A DNA stretch of 64,000 nucleotides from Phycisphaerae bacterium (GTDB lineage: Bacteria; Planctomycetota; Phycisphaerae; Sedimentisphaerales; Anaerobacaceae). The translations under genes were made by a program, and so were the position numbers. Positions 38,130 to 41,978 of this stretch are shown one piece after another. Within the stretch, counting starts at the first letter, position 1; each line of letters starts with the position of its first letter. The stretch covers positions 186,001 to 250,000 of the forward strand of contig JAQTMR010000001.1 of NCBI GenBank assembly GCA_028714255.1, read 5' to 3'. The notes beneath the pieces are model-generated. The model was given only the letters and a program-made list of their open reading frames with translations. It was not told the origin of the DNA and did no database searches.

Positions 38130-38909
38130 TTACTCGACAGAGAATTCCTTTTTACGGCTGTTCATTTGCGCTTTCAGACGTGAAATAATGGACGAGTGCA
38201 TCTGTGAGACGCGGGACTCGGACAAATCCAGCGTTGCGCCGATTTCCTTCATTGTCATTTCTTCGTAATAATACAAGACGATAATCAGCCGCTCGGCCCG
38301 TGTCAGTCCTTTGGTGAGCAGGCTTTTCAGGTCCCGCTTTTGAGCTTCCGTCAGCGGGTCTTCGCTTCTCTGGTCTTTGATTACATCTATTTCGCGGATG
38401 TCTTTTTCGCCGTCGTTTTCGCTGTAGTTGGTGTTCAGGGAAACCAGACCGACTGCACTTGCATCCTGCCTGAGCCTGGTAAACTCTTCCATATTCATAT
38501 CCATCTCTTCAGCGGTTTCTTTTTCGGTGGGCTTTCTGCCGAGGTGTGTTTCGAGCGAATGCACCGCCTTTGTAAGCTGATGGGCGCGGGCACGAACCAG
38601 CCGAGGCACCCAGTCCATACTCCGTAACTCATCAAGGATTGCGCCTCTTACACGAGGCGAGCAATATGTCTCGAACTTCACGCCCCTTTCGGGGTCGAAG
38701 GCATTGATAGCATCCACCAGCCCAAAAGTGCCGGCACTGATAAGGTCATCCAGCTCTACCTTGTCAGGCAGTTTGCTGCGCAGCCGTTCAGCGGCATATT
38801 TTACCAGCGGCCTGTAGTGCTCCATAAGCAGATTGCGGAATTGGACATCGCCGGTTTTATAGAACTGCTCCCAGATTTGCTCTATCTCGAGTGGCTGCTT
38901 GGTCTTCAT
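38130..38909 (-). CDS. RNA polymerase sigma factor, FliA/WhiG family
   Basis: EQIWEQFYKTGDVQFRNLLMEHYRPLVKYAAERL...LDDLISAGTFGLVDAINAFDPERGVKFETYCSPRVRGAILDELRSMDWVPR. Confidence 0.94.
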   Translation of the reverse strand: MKTKQPLEIEQIWEQFYKTGDVQFRNLLMEHYRPLVKYAAERLRSKLPDKVELDDLISAGTFGLVDAINAFDPERGVKFETYCSPRVRGAILDELRSMDWVPRLVRARAHQLTKAVHSLETHLGRKPTEKETAEEMDMNMEEFTRLRQDASAVGLVSLNTNYSENDGEKDIREIDVIKDQRSEDPLTEAQKRDLKSLLTKGLTRAERLIIVLYYYEEMTMKEIGATLDLSESRVSQMHSSIISRLKAQMNSRKKEFSVE

Positions 38910-39117: not shown

Positions 39118-39537
39118 TTATTCGAAGATTGAAATCATTTCCTGTTTTTGCCGGAGCAATACTGTTGCTACTCTTTGATTGAGCGAATTCTCCGAAAGCT
39201 TATTTATTTGAAACTCAAGATACTCGTTTCGATTCTCTTTGAGTAGTTTCTCGGCATAGCTGTCCACGGTCGGCTGGATATCCAGTTTGCCGGAGGCACC
39301 AAATTTGATGTTTCTGGTATCGCGGAACAGAAGACGCCGGCTTTGAATATGCTCACTAAGTGCATTGTTCATCAGGCTGCAAAACTCCTCCACCACCAAA
39401 TCCTTAGGAACAAAACCGGGACTGTTAATGTTGTTTATGTTAAGAGTGAGGATTTTCTGGCGACTCCGTGTGAACTCGATTATCTTAACGAGCAATTCGG
39501 AGATATTATCTGTTATCAACGAAGCTGTATTTTTCAT
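39118..39537 (-). CDS. FlgB-like (flagellar rod-like) orphan protein
   Basis: SRQKILTLNINNINSPGFVPKD near the N-terminus resembles the 'NIAN.NTPGY' rod-protein motif; C-terminal NEYLEFQINKLSENSLNQRVATVLLRQKQEMISIFE resembles the FlgB C-terminal helix. Confidence 0.5.
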   Translation of the reverse strand: MKNTASLITDNISELLVKIIEFTRSRQKILTLNINNINSPGFVPKDLVVEEFCSLMNNALSEHIQSRRLLFRDTRNIKFGASGKLDIQPTVDSYAEKLLKENRNEYLEFQINKLSENSLNQRVATVLLRQKQEMISIFE

Positions 39538-39616: not shown

Positions 39617-39925
39617 TCAGTTATTTTCAGCACTTGTGCCGTGTTCGGCCATTTTGCCGGCCGGCTCTTCTTTGGTTAAAATCCGTCTTATTTCCCAGAG
39701 AGTCTTTGTTTTCTTAAGTTCAATGATTCTTGATAATCTTTCAAAGACCGACTCGTCATACAATCGATGTCCGCCTTCGGTCCACTGCGACTCACGAATA
39801 AGTCCCATTATCGTGTAGTTATGAATAGTTTGCCGGGAAAAGGGAGTGCAATTAACCAATTCACCAATTCGATATAGCTTGGCGGGTATTTGCAACATTC
39901 GTTTTTTAACTTCTGTCTGCATCAC
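39617..39925 (-). CDS. MerR-family transcriptional regulator
   Basis: KLYRIGELVNCTPFSRQTIHNYTIMGLIRESQWTEGGHRLYDESVFERLSRI: winged HTH of the MerR family. Confidence 0.88.
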   Translation of the reverse strand: MMQTEVKKRMLQIPAKLYRIGELVNCTPFSRQTIHNYTIMGLIRESQWTEGGHRLYDESVFERLSRIIELKKTKTLWEIRRILTKEEPAGKMAEHGTSAENN

Positions 39926-40085: not shown

Positions 40086-40127
40086 CAAAATGTATTTTAC
40101 ATTTTGCAAAATGTAAAATACATTTTG
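40086..40127. promoter_or_regulatory. 42-bp perfect palindrome, candidate tandem operator
   Basis: CAAAATGTATTTTACATTTTG|CAAAATGTAAAATACATTTTG; each half is CAAAATGTA-N3-TACATTTTG. Confidence 0.7.
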
Positions 40128-40545
40128 CCTTATGTCAACTTTTTTCCATTTTTTTTGAAAAAAAATTTGACGAATCTCCCACGGAAGACAGTTTTTATCG
40201 GAGTCTGCCTAATTGACGGCAATAAGGTGATATTCCTTTGAAATTTATCGTTATTATCGGTGTTTTTCGTCAAATATTACTATCGCCACTTAAGCATTTA
40301 AAGAAACGTGATACAATAAAGCACCGAAATGGGCAGGCCCGGCCTCGCAGACAACCTTAATGCGGAGCGAACCGCCCCACTGCCAGACCAGCCCGGACAA
40401 TCAATCATCCGATGCGATGGGAAGTTACAAATCCGCCTGAAACAGGCAAGGTTTTTGCCAAATGTCCCTCCTGAAATATCCGATACAAGGTAAGCGGACT
40501 AAATAGTAACTGGTATGAATGAGGTAAAACTGTATCGCTATAATT

Positions 40546-41604
40546 ATGCACCAAGACAATAAGAGTTCCGATAATACCGATACCGCCCCTGCCGGCGGCA
40601 TCTCTTCGCTGGAGCGGATAACCCCACTGGCCCGGCAGATAAACTGCCTTGACATCGAACGGATAGCGAATGTCTGTATCGACAATATCCCCAAATTGAT
40701 TGGCGTGAGGTTCGCTTCGCTGTATATACTCGACGAAGCAAATAATATTCTGCACCTTCAGAAATATAATCATCCGTTTCTTATAAACAAAATAGTTTCA
40801 ATCAATCAAAGCCCGCCTTCGCCTATGGTTGTTGCGGTAAGAAGTAAAATGCTCGTACAGATACGGGACATAGACAGCCATAAAAGGCCTATCATCAGGA
40901 AATCTCAACGCGCTTTTTCTGGAAATTATGAAACCAAGAATTGCATTATCGCACCGCTTATTTGCCATGAAAAGGTAGTCGGCGTGCTTAATCTGGCGGA
41001 CAAAATAGAAGGCGACAGCTTCGATTGTGACGACATCGCACTTGTAGAACTGTTCAGCCAGCTGGTTGGCGCTTCCATAGGCAATATAAAGCTTTTTGAG
41101 AAGATGCAGCATCAAGCCGTAACAGACGGCTTGACGGGACTGGCAAACCACAAAACATTTTATGATATCCTCGAGAAAGAGCTGTGGAGAATGCGGCGAT
41201 ACGGCGGCCAAATTTCGCTGATTATGGTCGATATTGATAATCTCAAGAGGGTAAATGACGCTTACGGCCACCACGCAGGCGATAAAGTCATCAGAGAAAT
41301 CAGCAAAAAAATAAGGGCGTGCATCCGACAAATCGATACGGCAGCACGCTACGGAGGAGATGAATTCGCGGTGATTTTGCCCAATACTTCACTGGCTGAA
41401 GCGATTGTTGCCGCGGAACGTATGGTTGATTCGGTTTCAGGTTCACCGATAACGTGGAAAAAAGAGCAGATAGCCCTGTCTATCAGTGTCGGTGTCGGAG
41501 AATACGGCGCCGAGAACAGTCCCGAGGACATTACAAACCGTTCTGACAAGGCCTTGTATATGGCTAAGCAGGCGGGGAAAAACACAGTGAGAGTTTTTGA
41601 GTAA
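40546..41604 (+). CDS. GAF-GGDEF diguanylate cyclase
   Basis: GAF region (GVRFASLYILDEANNILHLQ...), then DGLTGLANHKTFYDILEKE... AARYGGDEFAVILPNTS. Confidence 0.95.
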   Translation: MHQDNKSSDNTDTAPAGGISSLERITPLARQINCLDIERIANVCIDNIPKLIGVRFASLYILDEANNILHLQKYNHPFLINKIVSINQSPPSPMVVAVRSKMLVQIRDIDSHKRPIIRKSQRAFSGNYETKNCIIAPLICHEKVVGVLNLADKIEGDSFDCDDIALVELFSQLVGASIGNIKLFEKMQHQAVTDGLTGLANHKTFYDILEKELWRMRRYGGQISLIMVDIDNLKRVNDAYGHHAGDKVIREISKKIRACIRQIDTAARYGGDEFAVILPNTSLAEAIVAAERMVDSVSGSPITWKKEQIALSISVGVGEYGAENSPEDITNRSDKALYMAKQAGKNTVRVFE

Positions 41605-41786: not shown

Positions 41787-41978
41787 ATGAAAATCGAAGA
41801 AGTAAGAAAAAAAGCGAAAAAGCTGGGAATAACCAGCGGCAAAATGAAAAAAGCGGAACTTATCCACGCCATCCAGAAAGCAGAAGGCAATACGCCTTGT
41901 TTCGGAAGATCAAACAATGGCCAATGCCCCTACATTAGCTGCTGCTTTATAAAAGACTGCCTTAAAATACAACTGTGA
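41787..41978 (+). CDS. Small SAP/Rho-N-like protein with Cys cluster
   Basis: MKIEEVRKKAKKLGITSGKMKKAELIHAIQKAEGNTPCFGRSNNGQCPYISCCFIKDCLKIQL; LEM/SAP-like helix pair followed by conserved-looking Cys pattern. Confidence 0.75.
   Translation: MKIEEVRKKAKKLGITSGKMKKAELIHAIQKAEGNTPCFGRSNNGQCPYISCCFIKDCLKIQL

Follow-up and report, generated by a model that had tools for sequence, protein, structure and literature searches.

Genes and palindrome at the locus

The 64,000-nt stretch of DNA analysed here (the window) contains a perfect palindrome of 42 bp at positions 40086..40127 (assigned to neither strand), in which two abutting 21-bp sites, CAAAATG-N7-CATTTTG, can be read directly. Its letters, CAAAATGTATTTTACATTTTG followed by CAAAATGTAAAATACATTTTG, agree exactly with an earlier note on this DNA, which had also judged a palindrome of this size unlikely to arise by chance. 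That judgement was upheld: it is the longest perfect palindrome of the window, the runner-up being 18 bp, and no palindrome longer than 22 bp arose when the 620-bp intergenic region was shuffled 2000 times with dinucleotide counts preserved. The flanking genes are likewise those described before, a MerR-like gene on the minus strand and a GAF-GGDEF gene on the plus strand.

The MerR-like gene (39617..39922, minus strand) encodes a regulator of 101 AA residues with a winged helix-turn-helix and no sensor domain, as judged from Pfam, alignment, AlphaFold2 and Foldseek. The match to Pfam MerR_1 (E 8.6e-9) lies above the cut-off and identifies the winged helix-turn-helix as MerR-type. The open reading frame was listed from GTG 39925, but orthologues indicate ATG 39922, which is probably the actual start. 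The AlphaFold2 model (pLDDT 82) has a low-confidence tail after residue 90 and no additional domain, and its Foldseek matches include MtaN, CadR, NmlR and GlnR. Neither a C-terminal sensor domain nor a long coiled coil for dimerisation, as in classical MerR activators, was found in this 101-residue protein or its model. Most family genomes have an orthologue, usually with 64-84% identity; in the order as a whole 143 of 162 genomes carry one, and other orders of the class have orthologues at 47-74% identity. Across the order, the helix-turn-helix and wing are nearly invariant in the alignment (SRQT-HNYT-MGLI, GGHRLY), as would be expected of a protein that reads one fixed, near-invariant site.

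Two further genes follow on the minus strand. The first (39118..39537) encodes an orphan FlgB-like rod protein, which matches NCBIfam FlgB at E 1e-8, below the cut-off of that model, and matches the flagellar proximal rod by fold. FlhA is present in 72 of the 89 family genomes, and the genome under study (2.41 Mb, 98.9% complete) contains neither FlhA nor any Flg_bb_rod or rod-domain match. A role for the FlgB-like protein as an RsiG-like factor was considered and rejected, given that the fold search returned flagellar rod proteins and RsiG only at E 3.9. The second gene (38130..38909) encodes a sigma factor that passes the FliA_WhiG subfamily cut-off (TIGR02479, 263.9 bits vs 189.6). Comparison with its paralogues indicates a second FliA/WhiG-family member, distinct from flagellar FliA: it is about 30% identical to the FliA encoded beside flhA in relatives, and it is not located with flagellar genes, FliA being separate beside flhA in relatives and flhA missing here. 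The divergent neighbour (40546..41604, plus strand) is a diguanylate cyclase gene (Pfam GGDEF, E 5.7e-45), in the translation of which the GGDEF motif and an RxxD I-site can be read. Downstream of it lies a gene for a 63-residue Rho_N-domain protein (41787..41978, plus strand).

Promoter elements and anatomy of the palindrome

The upstream regions of 76 merR orthologues from the family were extracted and aligned. Nearly all of them, read in the merR orientation, display A-tracts, TTGACA, 14 nt and then TTTTACATTTTrYAAAAyGTAAAA, an arrangement conserved across the order and partly in other orders of the class. In the window, a scan placed the -35 hexamer TTGACA at 40133..40138 (minus strand), and scanning together with conservation over the 76 sites placed the -10 hexamer TACATT at 40110..40115 (minus strand), inside the palindrome and separated from the -35 by a spacer of 17 bp. 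TTGAC is kept at fixed spacing in 73-74 of the 76 sites. Two A-tracts about 10 bp apart, resembling an UP element, lie upstream of the -35 (40141..40156, minus strand) and correspond to conserved columns -28..-23 and -38..-33 of the alignment. Among orthologues, anything from 2 to 555 bp separates the palindrome from the merR start, so that the element is conserved as a promoter and not via the adjoining coding sequence. No mirrored -35 was found on the far side of the palindrome, where the columns of the 76 sites carry about 0.05 bits; with the mirror positions unconserved, the palindrome is not a two-way promoter. In many family genomes (L004, with TTGACATCCGATAAAA, is one) the merR promoter also has a CCGATAA directly behind its -35. 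This could be a sigma-28-type -10 that overlaps the promoter; no -35 matching it was seen, and the element is absent in the window.

Conservation within the palindrome is highest in the 24-bp core TTTTACATTTTGCAAAATGTAAAA (40095..40118, neither strand), which comprises the inner half-sites and is nearly invariant, with most columns at 1.5-2.0 bits in the 76 aligned sites. The outer half-sites are less conserved, AAAA being their strongest part. The outer arms of any one genome nevertheless co-vary symmetrically, a degree of symmetry reached at arm positions 1, 4 and 6 by 0 of 1000 shuffles in a comparison that leaves kinship among genomes in; a relative of the same genus (G009), for example, has TAAAAGGTA...TACCTTTTA where the window has CAAAATGTA...TACATTTTG. 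Within each 21-bp unit the half-sites are 13 bp apart from centre to centre, with a 7-bp spacer, while the inner pair is only 8 bp apart, which is tight for a MerR-type dimer. The 21-bp unit shares the 7-7-7 spacing of the HspR operator, CTTGAGT-N7-ACTCAAG, and HspR has been proposed to bind its own promoter cooperatively (PMC6102357). The claim of two abutting operator sites thus gains from this geometry, and given how tight the inner pair alone would be, we favour two dimers on the two abutting units, with the inner halves predicted to be bound most tightly. It is also possible that a single dimer occupies one strong core and makes additional flanking contacts, because many genomes have weak outer half-sites, and the inner half-sites may be read by some different protein.

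The GGDEF gene is preceded by a promoter of its own, a sigma-28-type CCAAAT-N15-TCCGATA at 40458..40485 (plus strand), 330 bp away from the palindrome and conserved across loci. With up to two mismatches, TTTTTnCCAAAT-N15-TCCGATA occurs in 35 of 79 loci as against 0.25% of shuffles, mostly 50 to 95 bp ahead of the GGDEF start; PMC8325347 quotes TAAA / GCCGATAA as the published consensus of the flagellar type. The copy at 40458..40485 is the only exact one in this genome. A broad sigma-28 regulon was rejected here, since two-mismatch occurrences (66) are not clearly above those of the reversed control (49) and one single-mismatch match (L125) overlaps a coding frame. Between the palindrome and the GGDEF gene, a block at 40236..40268, AAATTTATCGTTATTATCGGTGTTTTTCG, is nearly unchanged in both genus relatives (G009, G010).

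Distribution of the site and its neighbours

The earlier note had suggested a genome search for the site as a way of defining a regulon. Such a search returned only the site at merR: no second copy was found in the genome for the 21-mer at up to two mismatches or for the central 24-mer at up to three. A sequence-only profile of 42 nt, built from 44 sites, was run on 89 family genomes and gave one strong locus in each merR-bearing genome, always at merR, as well as two sites in a genome with two merR genes. In one assembly (G020), one short contig has the site and another has a merR fragment. Family genomes lacking merR gave no profile match better than E 0.01. A genome-wide regulon was accordingly rejected. 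In other orders of the class, the core exceeded shuffles in 13 of 20 merR upstream regions (p<=0.01) and the exact 24-mer was present in one; no GGDEF gene was found near any of these 20 merR loci, which implies that the site follows merR and not GGDEF. These shuffle controls ignore kinship among genomes, and many of the assemblies compared are incomplete.

The gene order merR, FlgB-like gene, FliA/WhiG-type sigma gene and often dapF recurs in families f1-f4, f6 and f7. Many of these loci, though not all, also have a divergent GGDEF gene, and some of them are cut off by a contig edge. In family f5 the merR-GGDEF pair and the palindrome are kept and the sigma gene resides elsewhere in the genome. 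Since the sigma gene is unlinked there, and since gaps among merR, flgB-like and sigma genes reach 1.3 kb in several genomes, a single operon is not assured. The GAF-GGDEF gene is absent from 14 of the 15 genomes in which merR was not found, among them three single-contig genomes (98-99% complete) that also lack the sigma gene, and the sigma gene is absent from most of the merR-less genomes tested. In several of these genomes absence counts as weak evidence, as the assemblies are incomplete.

An autorepression model and its alternatives

The site overlaps the promoter of the regulator's own gene and accompanies merR in evolution, as an autoregulatory operator does. The merR-side promoter elements and the single site per genome, at merR, bear out the proposal that the palindrome is a regulatory element of the MerR-like gene, and we consider it likely that it is the promoter-operator of this gene, a grading that applies jointly to the following model. 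Two MerR-like dimers, side by side with one on each 21-bp unit, would lie over both the -10 and the start of transcription, obstructing RNA polymerase, whereby the MerR-like gene would repress itself. The repression would extend to the genes read with merR, those of the FlgB-like protein and the second FliA/WhiG-type sigma, until some signal or partner lifts it and the sigma factor is made. The sigma factor would then transcribe the divergent GAF-GGDEF gene from its sigma-28-type promoter, and c-di-GMP would rise. The model draws on the site, the promoter elements, their conservation, the single site per genome, the joint gene absence and the GGDEF promoter, all read from sequence; it predicts that the MerR-like protein binds the site and represses instead of activating, that the three genes are transcribed together and that the sigma factor controls GGDEF. 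Of its parts, repression by the regulator of itself and of the neighbouring sigma gene is probable, and the second sigma may drive the GGDEF gene. Should merR and sigma share a transcript, the sigma level would be set by the palindrome and the cyclase level in turn by sigma.

The earlier note had seen in the palindrome a candidate operator shared by both genes; on such a reading the MerR-like protein would control merR and GGDEF directly from it. The order-wide retention of the divergent layout, which f5 keeps in spite of its unlinked sigma, and the joint absence of merR and GGDEF are in keeping with such sharing, but conserved promoter elements stand on the merR side only, the mirror-side -35 columns are nearly devoid of information, GGDEF has its own distant, conserved promoter and the palindrome persists at merR loci with no GGDEF nearby. 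We thus hold direct control of both genes to be rather unlikely. The suggested connection between regulator and cyclase survives in another form. The conserved divergent neighbourhood and joint absence speak for a link, and given GGDEF's own sigma-28-type promoter and its absence together with merR and sigma, the connection to c-di-GMP is probably genuine, with the sigma factor as intermediary. Activation of its own gene by the bound protein also deserves weighing, given the MerR-family DNA-binding domain and the longer gaps between TTGACA and palindrome at some loci of other orders. A classical MerR activator untwists a suboptimal promoter from an operator centred within a spacer of 19-20 bp. 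Within the order, by contrast, the spacer is the standard 17 bp, the sites are centred on the -10/+1 and the protein is without a sensor domain, none of which fits and all of which makes activation quite improbable.

The strictest part of the palindrome, an even-centred 24-mer with a half-site distance short for a MerR dimer, would suit an unrelated regulator acting on the merR operon, merR itself being only the regulated gene. Set against this are the single site per genome, doubled with merR and absent without it, and the company of merR and site across the class; a single-target regulator beside another regulator would, moreover, be less economical, and we rate this reading as unlikely. The palindrome could also be a hairpin, either an RNA terminator or a DNA cruciform, whose symmetry would be maintained for structural reasons or through mutational template switching. 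It does fold as a single RNA hairpin (-18.4 kcal/mol), and the symmetric co-variation of the outer arms, unmatched by 1000 shuffles at several positions, would be in line with this. Conservation of the inner sequence is however per base and goes beyond pairing, and the hairpin would be missing from the merR RNA, which is expected to start inside the second arm. The terminator form was rejected, because the stem is AT-rich and the terminator scan did not pick it up, and the hairpin as a whole is very improbable. An Rfam search of the region returned nothing above threshold; a weak RT-6 match (E 0.17) was disregarded.

The proposed autorepression at the palindrome invites comparison with HspR/HAIR, which has the MerR-family helix-turn-helix, the 7-7-7 inverted repeat and the proposed cooperative covering of its own promoter by several dimers (PMC6102357). 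Unlike that system, the present locus has no chaperone genes, different letters in the repeat and a single target per genome. The MerR-like protein scores 25.7 against the NCBIfam HspR cut-off of 105 bits and is thus not assigned to this equivalog, and flgB-like, sigma and dapF genes stand in place of the dnaK/clpB context. GlnR and TnrA offer another parallel as sensor-less MerR-type winged helix-turn-helix proteins of similar fold (TMt 0.7-0.8) that bind a palindrome, as is predicted here; they differ in that there is no regulon of sites here and that the conserved neighbours include no glutamine synthetase gene. In actinobacteria, a WhiG/FliA-family sigma is linked with c-di-GMP in the sigma-WhiG/RsiG switch; in Rubrobacter, cyclase/phosphodiesterase genes are predicted WhiG targets (PMC8325347). 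No RsiG was found here, the FlgB-like protein folding as a flagellar rod protein instead, and a predicted MerR-like autoregulator is placed on top.

What was an isolated palindrome can now be described as a promoter-operator of defined layout, with a likely binding protein that a single short DNA would suffice to test. The MerR-like regulator, FlgB-like protein, second FliA/WhiG-type sigma and diguanylate cyclase form an apparently undescribed module; no description was found in the open-access literature, which is weak evidence of novelty. It is conserved across the order and partly across the class. We tentatively put forward the broader possibility of a class-wide module built on a MerR-like protein that is near-invariant and sensor-less. 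With its own promoter as sole target per genome, this protein would gate a dedicated non-flagellar sigma-28-type factor that activates the divergent diguanylate cyclase, giving a c-di-GMP switch wired differently from WhiG-RsiG and retained after loss of flagella. The sigma factor is about 30% identical to the flagellar FliA of relatives and the genome is without FlhA, yet the sigma-28-type promoter letters and the FlgB-like partner gene recall the flagellar FliA regulon. As the module persists where flagella are lost, one has to ask what purpose a sigma of flagellar type and a rod-like protein serve in a cell that has no flagellum.
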